Part shown: piece after piece, positions 56,725 through 63,663 of the stretch | Layout of the letters: every line of letters starts with the position of its first letter | Numbering within the stretch: the stretch's first letter is position 1 | Assembly: GCA_029976005.1 (NCBI GenBank) | Contig: JARKOQ010000037.1 | Span: 16,203-80,202, forward strand | Length of the DNA stretch: 64,000 bases | Source: Aggregatilineales bacterium | GTDB taxonomy: Bacteria; Chloroflexota; Anaerolineae; Aggregatilineales; Ch27 | Reading direction: 5' to 3' | Program-made: the position numbers and the translations under genes | Notes under the pieces: generated by a model | Told to the model about the DNA's origin: nothing | Database searches by the model: none | The model's input: only the letters and a program-made list of their open reading frames with translations

Positions 56725-58452
56725 TTATGGGCAGGCGGCCGAGACGGTGGTGGTACCACCCGCGACGGTCCACACCTCGATCCAGTAGTAGCCCGTGTGC
56801 GGCACTTCCCAGGCGATCTCGTTCGCGTTGTGGCCTTCGATCTGCTCGAACACGATCGGGGGCAGCGTGGCGTTTTCCAGGAACATCGCCGCGATGCGGA
56901 AGCGCCAGTCCGGGTAGCTGCTGGCGGAGGTCGAGATGTCGCCCGATGCGGTCAGTGTGACTTGCTCGCCTTCACGCCCAAACCAGATGTTGCCTGCGTG
57001 ATCCTCCCCGCCGCTGAGGGTGGCCGACTGGCTATTGCCACCGGGACGGCACAGCCGGATGTCCTGGGCCTGGCTGGTCAGCGTGTACGTGCCGCTCTGG
57101 ACGGAACCGGCCTCGATCGTGAACAGGTGGGGCAGGTCGCTGGTCGGCCAGTAGGAGAAGCTGACGCTTCCCTGGGTGATGTACGGGCGCACCACCTCAC
57201 TGGCCGGGGCGGCAATGCTCAGGACGGGGAAGGCGTCGCTGGTCAGGGTGATCTCGTGCATGATCCCGGCCCGGTTGCTGAAGAAGAACGTCACCGGCGT
57301 GTCTGGGGCCAGCGGGCCGCTGGCGGGTTGATCGGCCGTGAGGGGCAGATCGAGGAAGGGCGTGGGAAGCCCTGCCAACGGGTGGGGGAGTCGGTCGAGG
57401 GGCAGGTTGCGCAGCGCCGCGACGTCGAGCGCCTCCATCCGCGAAGGCCCTGCCACCGCGAGTCCATTCTGATCGACGGGGACGCGGTACTGCGCGCCGG
57501 TTGTCACGTCGAGGGGTGTTCCGTCCGGCAGCGTGAAGTGCAGCGCCCCAGCCAGGACTTGAAACAGGAGACCGTCCTGAGGGTCGGCCTGGACGTAGAG
57601 CGTGGCTTCCAGGTCGAAGCTGATTCCGTTCAGGCTGAGTCTGGCCCGGCCGGTGGCTGGCGGTTGGAGGAGCAGACCAGGCGGCGGCGCGTCGGGGCAG
57701 TCCTCCGTTGGGCTGCCGCTGTCCAGCACCGCCACCTGGAAGGGATCACGATACCAGTCCTCGGCGGAGAGGGCCGGGGCGTTGCGCAGGATGGTGGGAA
57801 TCTCGACGATCGGACAGTTGGTGACCACGTAGCCGGAGAAGACCCAGGCAGCCGACTCGTAAGGGGTGTCGATCCGCCACCAGGATGAATCGGCCAGGCG
57901 GCCGGTGATGATGACCTGCTCGTCCCGTTGCAGGACTTCGAGCACGGCAGCGTTGTATGAGGGGTAGTTGCGCACGTTGAGTGTGTCGGTGACGACGCGC
58001 CCATAACAGGTGGCGGCGGGCTTGGCCTCGCTCTGGACGGCAGTGCGATTGTCGGTGAGAGTCGCGTTGCCGAGCAGCCACATGGTGACCATCTCAGGCG
58101 CGTTGGAAGGCAGGCCTGCGCCCTGGGCCACGGTGAGCAGTCCCCAGCTTTCCGGCGCGGCGTCCAGGGGGGCTATCTGAAGCTGTTCCAGTCCATCCAG
58201 ACTGAAATGGCTGCCTGCCGCGTAGGAAGCTGGTGGATTGGCGCCCGTGGTCGTGATCGCGCCTCCGGCGACACAGGCTTCATTGCGGTGAAGCGCGCCA
58301 CATGATTCCACGGCCTGATAAGCCTTCTGAATCAGGATCGGACAGGAGGCTCCCGACCCCTGGGCCGCTGTTTCCAGGCCCGATGATGCCAGGACGGCAG
58401 CGACCGCGATTCCGATCGCCCCGAGGATGATCCACTTCCCGTACTGCCGCAT
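56725..58452 (-). CDS. Secreted protein with bacterial SH3 domain
   Basis: N-terminal signal/TM; VVTDTLNVRNYPSYNAAVLEVLQRDEQVIITGRLADSSWWRID SH3b motif. Confidence 0.75.
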   Translation of the reverse strand: MRQYGKWIILGAIGIAVAAVLASSGLETAAQGSGASCPILIQKAYQAVESCGALHRNEACVAGGAITTTGANPPASYAAGSHFSLDGLEQLQIAPLDAAPESWGLLTVAQGAGLPSNAPEMVTMWLLGNATLTDNRTAVQSEAKPAATCYGRVVTDTLNVRNYPSYNAAVLEVLQRDEQVIITGRLADSSWWRIDTPYESAAWVFSGYVVTNCPIVEIPTILRNAPALSAEDWYRDPFQVAVLDSGSPTEDCPDAPPPGLLLQPPATGRARLSLNGISFDLEATLYVQADPQDGLLFQVLAGALHFTLPDGTPLDVTTGAQYRVPVDQNGLAVAGPSRMEALDVAALRNLPLDRLPHPLAGLPTPFLDLPLTADQPASGPLAPDTPVTFFFSNRAGIMHEITLTSDAFPVLSIAAPASEVVRPYITQGSVSFSYWPTSDLPHLFTIEAGSVQSGTYTLTSQAQDIRLCRPGGNSQSATLSGGEDHAGNIWFGREGEQVTLTASGDISTSASSYPDWRFRIAAMFLENATLPPIVFEQIEGHNANEIAWEVPHTGYYWIEVWTVAGGTTTVSAACP

Positions 58453-59351: not shown

Positions 59352-61661
59352 ATGGATGCTTCGGGGAGGAGGCATCCTGATCGTCTCTGGACGCCTTTGA
59401 CAGAGGATCTTGCGCGGCGCGATTGCCGGGGATTTCAGGTCGTTTGCGGAACACCAGCCGTGGTTTATTCGACGACGTATGATCGCAGTTGGGCGGTCGT
59501 GATCGGTATCGATCGATATCGAGCGATGCCGCCTCTCCGTCACGCGGTGGCTGATGCGCATGCCGTGGCTGATGCGCTGATCGGTCTGTTTGGCTTTGAG
59601 CCGCGCCGGGTCGCCCGGCTGACGGATGACATGGCGACGCGGAGCCGAATCGGCGCCGTGCTGGAGAAGCAGCTCGGCGATCCGGCCAGGATCGGCAAGG
59701 ACGACCGGGTCGTGGTCTTTGTGGCCGGGCACGGCGTCAGCCGATCGAACGAAGACCGGGGTTATTTCGCCCCGGTGGATGCCTCCCGCACGCATTGGGA
59801 CAATTTCATCGCGTTCGACCACATCACCGAGATGGTCGAAGCCATGCCGGCCAAGCATGTGTTGTTGATCATCGATTCCTGCTACGCAGGGCCGGACCTG
59901 ATGCGCGGCATCTCCGACCGGGTGGCGGAGGACTTCATCGCCCGGCCGACGCGTCAGATTTTGGCGGCGGGCCGCTCCGACGAGATGGTGATGGATGGCG
60001 GCGGGCCGGGTGGGCGTCACTCGATTTTCACCGGCTACCTGCTGGAAGGGCTGCGCGGCAAGGCGGCCGACGAGCGCGGCCTGCTGGTGGGAAGCAGCCT
60101 GATCACGTACGTCACCCAGAGCGTCTACAACGACCCACGCGCCAGGCAGACTCCGATGGGCGGCTGGCTGTCCGGCGACGGCGATTTCGTGTTTCGCAGC
60201 GCCGCGCCTCAGCACCTGCCTCCGGATTTCACGCAGCGTCTGGCGGACAGCAGCCCGATTCACGACCGGTTGGAGGCGGTGGCCGATCTGGCCTCGCTTG
60301 CGGTTCATGGCGAGTCGCGTGTGGCCGAGGACGCCGTTTACGCCCTCAAGCTGGTGGTTCGGACGGATCAGGACGAGCAGGTGAAGTCGATGGCGACTCA
60401 CGTGCTCAACGAGATTCGCCAGATGGCGAGAATCATCGGGCGCAGCCAGCCAGCTCGGTCCGAGACCGAGCTGCAGCCCGCTGCCGAGCCGCGCAAACCC
60501 ATTCTGCTGACGCTCCGCGAAACCCTGCCGTCTGAAGCAGTCCCGGCGTCCCAAGACCGCGTGGAGCCGCCTCTCGCGCCGCCCGTGTGTGAAACGTCGT
60601 CCGCTGCGCAACAAACGGGCCAGCCTGAGTCGGTCCGGCCCGCAGCGGCGGAGTCCGCTCAGCCTGAGCCTCCTTCGCGGCGTCGCAGGGGCCGGTGGCT
60701 CAGGGCGGGCCTGAGTCTGGTGGTGCTTTTGTTCCTGGCGACTGTTTTCTCCTTCATCATCCTTCAGTCCGGCCTGCTGCCGCGCTCTGGAAGGCTTGTG
60801 GGCCTCCTGCCCACGCTGACTCTCGACGCGCAGAGTATCGAGGCCATTGTCCAGACCCAGGAGGCAGCCGTGCAGGCGCTCGCGGCGGCAGCGATTCTGG
60901 AGACCAAGCAGTCGGAGGCGACGGCCATCGCCAGCGGCGTTGTGGCCGACTCCACGGCGGCTCCCACGGCTGTGCCTGAAGGTGGTTCCTACGCGAGTCT
61001 TGGTGGCGCGCCGGTGCCGCCGGCCGGCCGGCCGGTGGCCACGCCGTCCTTATTTCCGACGCCGGAGGTGCTGTTCCGGCCGGCGGGACGCGTTCTGTTC
61101 GAAGATCATTTTGGCGACAATCAGTGGTGGCTGCTGGACAGCGCGCCCAACGGGGTGCGGGAAATTCGCGACGGGAGTCTGTATCTTGAGCTGGACGACG
61201 ACTTCGATCAGTGGTACGTCCGGCCCGATCCGGCGTTAGTCCCGGCGGCGGCGGATTTTGTCCTGGATGTCGACGCCACGGTGCTGACCCCCAACGCCGA
61301 TGGCATGGTGCTGGTCCTGTTCCGGACGCAGCCCGACGATTCCGGCGAGCTGGGCGATTATTATGCTTTTGGCGTCGCGCTGTCCGGCGAGGCCATCCTG
61401 CTGGTGCAGACTGGCGGCCAGCCGTACCCCCTGGCTCCCTTGCAGGCGATGCCCACCGGGCCGCTGCCGCCGGATGAACCGGTGCACCTGCGCGTGGTGG
61501 CGCGCGGCGACTCGCTCAGCCTGGTGGTGAACGGCGTCGAAATCCTCACGGCCGAGGATCAGACCTATGCACGGGGTGGTTTCGCCCTGGGCGCATGGGC
61601 GCGCGTGATGACCCCCTACACCGTCACCTTCGACCATCTCGTCTTCGGCCTGCCTGATTGA
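59352..61661 (+). CDS. Caspase-like (C14, metacaspase-type) protein with TM helix and C-terminal concanavalin-like domain
   Basis: WAVVIGIDRYRAMPPLRHAVADAHAVADAL; VVVFVAGHGVSR; VLLIIDSCYAG; TM LRAGLSLVVLLFLATVFSFIIL; C-terminal VLFEDHFGDNQWW...VNGVEIL. Start uncertain. Confidence 0.85.
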   Translation: MDASGRRHPDRLWTPLTEDLARRDCRGFQVVCGTPAVVYSTTYDRSWAVVIGIDRYRAMPPLRHAVADAHAVADALIGLFGFEPRRVARLTDDMATRSRIGAVLEKQLGDPARIGKDDRVVVFVAGHGVSRSNEDRGYFAPVDASRTHWDNFIAFDHITEMVEAMPAKHVLLIIDSCYAGPDLMRGISDRVAEDFIARPTRQILAAGRSDEMVMDGGGPGGRHSIFTGYLLEGLRGKAADERGLLVGSSLITYVTQSVYNDPRARQTPMGGWLSGDGDFVFRSAAPQHLPPDFTQRLADSSPIHDRLEAVADLASLAVHGESRVAEDAVYALKLVVRTDQDEQVKSMATHVLNEIRQMARIIGRSQPARSETELQPAAEPRKPILLTLRETLPSEAVPASQDRVEPPLAPPVCETSSAAQQTGQPESVRPAAAESAQPEPPSRRRRGRWLRAGLSLVVLLFLATVFSFIILQSGLLPRSGRLVGLLPTLTLDAQSIEAIVQTQEAAVQALAAAAILETKQSEATAIASGVVADSTAAPTAVPEGGSYASLGGAPVPPAGRPVATPSLFPTPEVLFRPAGRVLFEDHFGDNQWWLLDSAPNGVREIRDGSLYLELDDDFDQWYVRPDPALVPAAADFVLDVDATVLTPNADGMVLVLFRTQPDDSGELGDYYAFGVALSGEAILLVQTGGQPYPLAPLQAMPTGPLPPDEPVHLRVVARGDSLSLVVNGVEILTAEDQTYARGGFALGAWARVMTPYTVTFDHLVFGLPD

Positions 61662-61726: not shown

Positions 61727-62605
61727 ATGGCTGGAGTGAAACCCGCAGCACGGCGTTTGCTGGTGAGCTTCGCGCACCCGGACGACGAATCGTTCGGGAT
61801 GGGTGGGGCGATTGCCCGGTATGCCGATCAAGGCGTCGACGTACACTTGATTTGCGCGACAGGGGGCGAGGAGGGCGACATCCCGCCCGGCATGGCGCTG
61901 GGCGATCGCTCGATTGGCGAAGTGCGCCTGGACGAACTGAACTGCGCCGCCAAAACGCTCGGAATCCGGCAGGTGATCACACTGGGGTATCGCGATAGCG
62001 GCATGATGGGCGCGCCGCAGAACCAGAATCCCGCCTGTCTCTGGCAGGCCGATCCAGACGTCCTGACCGGGCAGATCGTCGAGGTGATCCGGCGGGTGCG
62101 TCCCCAGGTGGTGGTGACCTTCGATCCCTACGGGGGCTATGGTCACCCGGATCACATTGCCATTCAGCGGGCGACCGTGCGCGCGTTCCACGCGGCCGGC
62201 GCGGCCGATCAGTACCCCAATCAGGTCGCGGCCGGATTGGAACCCTACCAGGCGCGAAAGCTGTACTACACCGTTTTTCCCCGGACGTTTGTCCGCCTGG
62301 CGGTCTGGGCCACGCGGCTGGCGGGCCGCGACCCGCGCCGGATGGGTCGCAACCACGATCTGGACTTTCAGGCCGTGATCGACGCGACCCTGCCCACGCA
62401 TGCCCGGCTTGACCTGCGGACCTATTACGATACCTGGCAGCGAGCCAATGCCTGCCATGCCAGCCAGAGCGGGCCGGGGGAACTCCTGCCCCTGCTGCGC
62501 CCTCTGGCGCGGGCGGTGTTTGGCTGGCAGACCTTTCACCGCGCCTGGCCCGAAGTCAACGGGCGCTCTCCTGGCGAGCACGATCTGTTCGAAGGGCTTG
62601 ACTGA
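61727..62605 (+). CDS. PIG-L/LmbE family deacetylase
   Basis: LLVSFAHPDDESFGMGGAIARYADQGVDVHLICATGGEEGD; YGGYGHPDHIAI. Confidence 0.93.
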   Translation: MAGVKPAARRLLVSFAHPDDESFGMGGAIARYADQGVDVHLICATGGEEGDIPPGMALGDRSIGEVRLDELNCAAKTLGIRQVITLGYRDSGMMGAPQNQNPACLWQADPDVLTGQIVEVIRRVRPQVVVTFDPYGGYGHPDHIAIQRATVRAFHAAGAADQYPNQVAAGLEPYQARKLYYTVFPRTFVRLAVWATRLAGRDPRRMGRNHDLDFQAVIDATLPTHARLDLRTYYDTWQRANACHASQSGPGELLPLLRPLARAVFGWQTFHRAWPEVNGRSPGEHDLFEGLD

Positions 62606-62622: not shown

Positions 62623-63663
62623 ATGATGGAGAGGGATCGGAGGGACCTGGGCGGCCGGTTTGACGCTCAGGGGTGTTCCCTGGCTTGCCTGCGATCGTCC
62701 TTGCTGCTGGCTGAAGTGTGCTTTTCCGAAGGGGATTTCCGCACGATGCTCGATCCGCGCGATATGCACCGCCGTGCCCTCCGCCCGCTGGTGGAGGCCG
62801 CGCTCCAGGCCGATGGGCTTCAGGCCTGGGCCAATGGCGTGGTGACGGATGCCCTCCAGGCCCCGGATCGACAGCTCAAGGCCGGGGCGATCACGGCGCT
62901 CGAAGATTATCTGCTCGCCCAGGCCATCCCTTCCGGGCTGCGCACGACTTCGGGCCTCAACTTCGATCTGGTGGTAGCCTTCGCGGACGAGATTCAGCGC
63001 ATCTGCACGGATGAATCGATCTCGCTGCTGGTGAGCTACAACGGCGTCGCGTGGCTCCTGGAAGGCTGGCGGGTGCGCACGCCGCCGCGTCTGTCGGCTG
63101 ACGATCCGCTGGTGATCCTGCCGGCCTGTGTGGCAGCCGGACTCGGAGTCCACGCGGCGGCATTCCTGGCGATCGAGGAGGGGATGCGGGCGCTGATGCA
63201 CCTGGCCGGGGGCCTCGCGCCGGTGCGCGAAGCGGCGGTGCTGGGCTTGCAGCGCATGCTCGAACAGCGCTGGACGCGGACTCTGCACGAGCTGCGCCGT
63301 TACGCGCTGATCGGGGACTGCCGCCAGCACGCGGCGGCGCTCAAGGCCGTGTCGGTGCCACGCCTGCTGACCGATCGCGGGCGGACCCTTGATGCGCTCG
63401 ATCTTCACCACGAAATCCTGGCGGCTTACCGGCGACTGCCCCAGGTCGCGCGGGCAAGCGAGGCCGGGCTGGCCCTGCGCCGGACGCTGCCCGAAACGGT
63501 CGCCCGCCTGCTGGTCGCCGAGCGGCTGGCCGGATTCGCGGCGGCCTGGGCCTGGCTGGCGTGGGGCGATCCCGATGTGAGCGCCATCATCCAGGAGAGC
63601 ATCGCCGGCCAACCCCTGGCCTCGTTTGAAGAAGCGGCTTTTCTCCGCCTCAATTTCTCCTAG
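62623..63663 (+). CDS. Hypothetical protein
   Basis: Long ORF with no overlapping competitor; no recognised motif; true start may be downstream (e.g. 62746). Confidence 0.6.
   Translation: MMERDRRDLGGRFDAQGCSLACLRSSLLLAEVCFSEGDFRTMLDPRDMHRRALRPLVEAALQADGLQAWANGVVTDALQAPDRQLKAGAITALEDYLLAQAIPSGLRTTSGLNFDLVVAFADEIQRICTDESISLLVSYNGVAWLLEGWRVRTPPRLSADDPLVILPACVAAGLGVHAAAFLAIEEGMRALMHLAGGLAPVREAAVLGLQRMLEQRWTRTLHELRRYALIGDCRQHAAALKAVSVPRLLTDRGRTLDALDLHHEILAAYRRLPQVARASEAGLALRRTLPETVARLLVAERLAGFAAAWAWLAWGDPDVSAIIQESIAGQPLASFEEAAFLRLNFS

Follow-up and report, generated by a model that had tools for sequence, protein, structure and literature searches.

Bacterial transmembrane signaling uses kinases, cyclases and chemoreceptors. 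Metacaspases with receptor-like architectures have also been described: transmembrane (TM) helices were reported in 15% of 671 bacterial metacaspases, among which a Trichodesmium erythraeum IMS101 protein carries an external CHASE2 receptor domain, a Cyanothece protein carries an ANF_receptor domain, and an FGE variant has a TM pair (Asplund-Samuelsson et al. 2012, PMC3501461). In the two-gene EACC1 systems, the C-terminal domain that follows a constant caspase can be any of up to 50 alternatives; TM helices are present in at least 33% of these caspases, and some have an external periplasmic-binding protein (Kaur et al. 2020, PMC7159879). Orthocaspases generally cut after positively charged residues (PMC6426788).

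Here we describe a caspase gene from an Aggregatilineales bacterium (Chloroflexota, Anaerolineae), found in a 64,000-nucleotide stretch of DNA (the window). Its product is best read as a single-pass receptor-like orthocaspase, in which an outward ligand-binding ectodomain controls an inner caspase. We assign this reading a probability of about 0.6, because of the architecture of the protein, the exchangeable outer domains of its relatives, and the occurrence of the same ectodomain on receptor kinases. The features of the locus are as follows, with residues counted from the ATG at 59352; relatives are designated below by locus numbers (L003 and so on).

59460..61661, + strand: receptor-type orthocaspase gene with a probable GTG start (ORF, homolog alignment, codon-position GC)
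59460..60203, + strand: predicted cytoplasmic caspase domain (p20-p10), residues 37-284 (Pfam PF00656, AlphaFold2, Foldseek)
59730..59732, + strand: catalytic His127, in AGHG, residues 125-128 (sequence, homolog alignment)
59880..59882, + strand: catalytic Cys177, in DSCYAG, residues 175-180, with the conserved Asp175 before it (sequence, homolog alignment)
60222..60443, + strand: HEAT-like helical module, residues ~291-364 (weak HEAT_2/Cnd1 matches, confident modeled helices)
60444..60686, + strand: Pro/Ala/Gln-rich linker, predicted cytoplasmic (sequence)
60705..60764, + strand: single TM helix, residues 452-471 (hydropathy 2.73)
60765..61076, + strand: predicted extracytoplasmic stalk, an Ala/Glu segment followed by a Pro/Ala-rich one, low-complexity (sequence)
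61077..61658, + strand: CBM66/LamG-like beta-sandwich ectodomain, residues 576-769 (AlphaFold2, Foldseek, profile search)
61727..62605, + strand: PIG-L/LmbE deacetylase, next to the caspase gene

An intact ORF of 769 codons (59352-61661, + strand) can be read from ATG 59352, as in the preliminary description of this DNA. The start is probably GTG 59460, giving 733 residues, since homolog alignments begin at residue 37 ('MVYSTTYDRSWAVVIGI') and the first 36 residues have a non-coding-like composition, with a GC3 of 0.53 vs. 0.79 in the remainder of the ORF. The unusually AT-rich stretch reported upstream is real (44.7% GC vs. 65.3% for the window, within the lowest ~0.3% of 161-bp windows), and it is ordinary, because it is intergenic, lying between the caspase gene and its upstream neighbor, a divergent histidine phosphatase (His_Phos_1) gene.

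Residues 45-268, within the caspase domain, match Pfam Peptidase_C14 (PF00656) with E=2.6e-16, exceeding the curated cut-off, and the caspase part was modeled with AlphaFold2 at pLDDT 92.5 from an alignment of 61 relatives. Foldseek matched the model to the MALT1 paracaspase and to metacaspases (E~1e-11 to 1e-9), including those of plants, yeast and Candida, as well as to the Geobacter orthocaspase-like protein GSU0716 and to animal caspases. His127 and Cys177 are both kept in 60 of 61 aligned homologs, Asp175, located two positions ahead of Cys177, is invariant (61 of 61), and plant metacaspase-4 lines up with the protein at an acidic 'ND/AD' position. Judged by sequence and model, the protein has the fold and catalytic dyad of an orthocaspase/metacaspase (Peptidase_C14, clan CD), bearing out the earlier call of an intact His/Cys dyad in an N-terminal caspase-like domain.

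Pseudo-orthocaspases have been described in bacteria (PMC6426788), and a paralog encoded in the same genome (L142) has lost both its catalytic His and its catalytic Cys, precedents for a non-proteolytic scaffold or pseudo-enzyme. Such a role is highly improbable for the window protein, in which the dyad and Asp175 are intact, as the dyad is in nearly all of the aligned homologs counted above. In the paralog (G000:C173, 2911-4887, - strand), a Ser/Thr kinase domain (Pkinase E=5e-50) is joined to a pseudo-caspase, with HEAT repeats (HEAT_2 E=2e-5) after the latter. A family-alignment search recovered this paralog as a second, divergent caspase-like protein of the genome, where no other was found besides the window protein. 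A PF00656 search of the genome gave no match beyond the window protein, and a single-protein search of the genome contigs gave no relative; with the family alignment as query, relatives did appear.

Between the caspase domain and the membrane, the preliminary description listed only a linker. Its account of caspase, linker, TM helix and beta-sandwich stands, with the HEAT-like module at residues ~291-364 to be added. A helical segment aligning to this module is present in several homologs, and HEAT_2 is matched in the related chassis of L050 (E=2e-4) as well as in the paralog. The single TM helix proposed earlier coincides with the one strong hydrophobic segment, at residues 452-471. RRRRGRWLR lies before it, and the 20 residues on its N-terminal side contain six K/R, vs. 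two after it, a strong signal by the positive-inside rule for a predicted N-in orientation.

The C-terminal 209 residues, modeled with AlphaFold2 from 52 homologous domains, form an all-beta fold at pLDDT 91, and the FEDHFGDNQWW motif pointed out earlier begins at residue 583, within this confidently modeled domain. In the PDB, the Bacillus subtilis levanase CBM66 is matched best (Foldseek to 4b1m, E=4e-10; profile search, E=3e-13), followed by other concanavalin-type sandwiches. The predicted domain is therefore a CBM66/LamG-ConA-like lectin fold by both structure and profile; the original designation as concanavalin/LamG-like was right in fold, with CBM66 as the nearest solved relative. Levanase CBM66 (PDB 4b1m, 4azz) resembles the ectodomain in fold and sequence profile, and differs in its setting, on a secreted fructan hydrolase, and in sequence, at ~18% identity. 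An enzymatic role as a 3-keto-disaccharide hydrolase was rejected, given that PF06439 scores below its cut-off (E=4e-5, 24.2 bits vs. 26.8) and the closest fold is that of a binding module.

This type of domain is nearly universal across the order, being found in 79 of the 81 genomes searched, mostly on secreted, lipoprotein or single-TM proteins. In the same genome, a protein encoded at G000:C116, 1250-2944 (+ strand; L213) consists of a PknB-type kinase (Pkinase E=8e-45), a TM helix and a PF06439 match (E=9e-7), and eight other relatives (L194, L222, L226, L227, L229-L232) likewise join a kinase, a TM helix and the same ectodomain type. Kinases act in the cytoplasm, so in these proteins the ectodomain lies outside.

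The complete architecture of the window protein also occurs in two other Anaerolineae genomes, both metagenome-assembled (L003 and L004), and the search for identical architectures suggested in the preliminary description returned, in addition, L054, on a distant caspase clade. The LamG-type ectodomain is accordingly present in at least two unrelated places in the caspase tree, a quick tree in which the placing of the window protein is weakly supported. L014, still labeled as LamG in that tree, was considered and not counted, as the ectodomain profile gives no match to it.

Other Anaerolineae relatives carry different outer domains on the same chassis of caspase, with or without HEAT, and TM helix. 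These include SBP_bac_5 in L010 (E=1e-64) and L050 (E=6e-52), FGE-sulfatase in L011 and L158, WD40/PD40 propellers in L017, L150 and L151, a C39-like peptidase (C39_2) in L148, and further domains that have no family assignment in L138 and L149. L156 (584-2887, - strand) is a caspase-HEAT-TM protein with a multiheme cytochrome c outside, containing several CxxCH motifs, and is possibly a redox-sensing caspase. L050 (1492-3954, + strand) has the order caspase-HEAT-FHA-TM-SBP_bac_5; its intracellular, phosphopeptide-binding FHA domain hints at crosstalk with receptor kinases. Domains of the periplasmic-binding and c-type heme kinds function outside the cytoplasm, and the occurrence of SBP_bac_5 and multiheme cytochrome c at the outer position supports a C-out topology. 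Several sister pairs differ in ectodomain at SH-aLRT values of 97-99, namely L010 (SBP) and L011 (FGE), L156 (cytochrome) and L158 (FGE), L148 (C39) and L151 (PD40), and L017 (WD40) and L149. Such well-supported sisters with unlike ectodomains point to domain swapping as seen in sensor proteins.

On a single chassis, the ectodomain has been replaced repeatedly by unrelated domains of binding, redox and propeller type, and it also occurs on receptor kinases. Both observations suit sensing better than the main alternative, namely that the ectodomain is a mere anchor to the cell wall or to extracellular polysaccharide, with the caspase controlled from inside by the HEAT module, Ca2+ or partners. 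CBM66-like modules commonly tether enzymes to polysaccharide, CBM and LamG folds can be mere anchors, and in this order many lipoproteins and TM proteins carry the module by itself. Among close chassis relatives, moreover, there are soluble proteins and proteins that stop after the TM helix (L144 and L147 have a TM helix and no ectodomain), indicating that the family does not depend on having one. Taking both sides together, we consider the anchor explanation unlikely.

Beyond the single gene, the Anaerolineae orthocaspases may constitute a general receptor chassis, parallel to the receptor kinases, in which caspase(-HEAT)-TM is combined with swappable lectin-like, peptide-binding, redox/heme or propeller sensors that turn signals into proteolysis. 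This wider proposal is offered tentatively, at somewhat less than even odds.

The affinities of the caspase domain itself raise another explanation. Among NCBIfam models, NF047832 ('caspase, EACC1-associated type') fits it best, with E=1e-23 and 83.7 bits, the PADLOC 'caspase' model matches the window protein, and the window family shows the EACC1-type combination of an N-terminal caspase, variable C-terminal domains and, often, a TM helix. The protein could on these grounds be a member or offshoot of EACC1-type conflict systems, in which an autoproteolytic caspase would release its variable C-terminus as an effector in defense or death; the diversity of C-terminal domains, the TM helices and the external periplasmic-binding domains reported for those systems (PMC7159879) fit this idea. 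However, the score falls short of the NF047832 cut-off of 140 bits, and EACC1 (PF19953) is not found above its cut-off in the 82%-complete genome, nor beside the caspase gene, where the upstream position is taken by the divergent His_Phos_1 gene. A lectin-like domain outside the membrane would, furthermore, make a poor cytoplasmic effector, and PADLOC identified no defense genes among the four neighboring genes tested. Membership in an EACC1 system was rejected, and we regard this explanation as decidedly improbable. From its sequence, the window protein appears to be a relative of the EACC1-type caspases that works like them and falls outside their defining limits.

The neighborhood offers few further clues. 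The PIG-L deacetylase has orthologs adjoining the caspase genes of L003 and L004 (54% and 52%; each genome's best match), at distances of 50 bp to 2 kb and in convergent orientation, and this conserved linkage supports the orthology of the three caspases. An extended -10-like element, TGCTATAAT, lies at ~61681, just past the caspase stop codon and ahead of the PIG-L gene, which may therefore have its own promoter, although a promoter scan did not list the element. The inverted orientation elsewhere and the intervening element argue against an obligate caspase/PIG-L operon, and an operon in the window itself is doubtful. No conserved partner gene other than the deacetylase was found, so that no pathway can be read from an operon. 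The remaining neighbors encode an SH3_3 protein, a Gfo/Idh/MocA oxidoreductase and a methyltransferase. The SH3_3 protein (56725-58452, - strand; 575 aa) has a hydrophobic stretch near its N-terminus and matches SH3_3 at E=3e-8, its remaining sequence having no assignment. Past the PIG-L gene lies a 346-aa ORF (62623-63663, + strand) with no Pfam match. A defense island was also considered and set aside in view of the PADLOC result and the functions of the neighbors, which do not point there.

In the receptor-like protease that we favor, a cytoplasmic caspase, a TM helix and an external ligand-binding domain are predicted to be united in one chain. The CBM66/LamG-like ectodomain would face outward and bind a glycan or another envelope or extracellular ligand, and binding would alter clustering or conformation through the single TM helix. 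The caspase domains might thereby be brought together or freed, with the HEAT-like module serving for docking or oligomerization, and the released or clustered caspase would then cut cytoplasmic targets, probably after Arg or Lys. Programmed death, one of the outcomes suggested at first, would be only one possibility.

If this is true, such proteins would form a 'receptor protease' class of bacterial signaling, turning external stimuli directly into proteolysis. A caspase-output family with exchangeable sensors would make the triggers of bacterial metacaspases directly testable, because several of the ectodomains suggest candidates (peptides, redox state via hemes, sugars), and it would bear on how eukaryotic caspases came to act downstream of receptors. 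This family-wide pattern is of greater interest than the single gene.

The receptor-like bacterial metacaspase is not a new concept (PMC3501461, PMC7159879). The idea of an external sensor linked to an internal protease, put forward in the preliminary description, fits the fold, the kinase parallel and the ectodomains of sister proteins; its concern that the architecture might already be well characterized applies to the concept, and not to this combination of domains. In the open-licence literature searched, we did not find the CBM66/LamG combination, the HEAT-like module, or ectodomain exchange of the breadth seen in Anaerolineae, and metacaspase was not paired with LamG/concanavalin in any of the top 10 of 32 papers matching these subjects.

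Like the window protein, the CHASE2-metacaspase has a cytoplasmic N-terminal metacaspase, TM segments and a receptor domain predicted to lie outside (PMC3501461). The CHASE2 and ANF proteins differ in their ectodomains (a domain search found no CHASE2 in the window protein), and the CHASE2 protein has four TM helices, compared with one here; both are single cyanobacterial sequences, for which no series of ectodomain exchanges was described (PMC3501461). The EACC1 systems, to which the nearest named NCBIfam subfamily of the window caspase belongs, share with it the N-terminal caspase, the interchangeable C-terminal domains and the frequent TM helices (PMC7159879). They are, in contrast, composed of two genes, a caspase and its EACC1 partner, mainly in Actinobacteria, whereas the window protein is encoded by a single gene in Anaerolineae and is distinguished by its HEAT-like module and CBM66/LamG ectodomain. 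Its build also parallels the PknB-type TM kinases of the same bacteria, such as L213, which have the same N-in orientation, one TM helix and a 3-keto-disaccharide-hydrolase/LamG ectodomain in the same position, and which carry a kinase where the window protein has caspase-HEAT.
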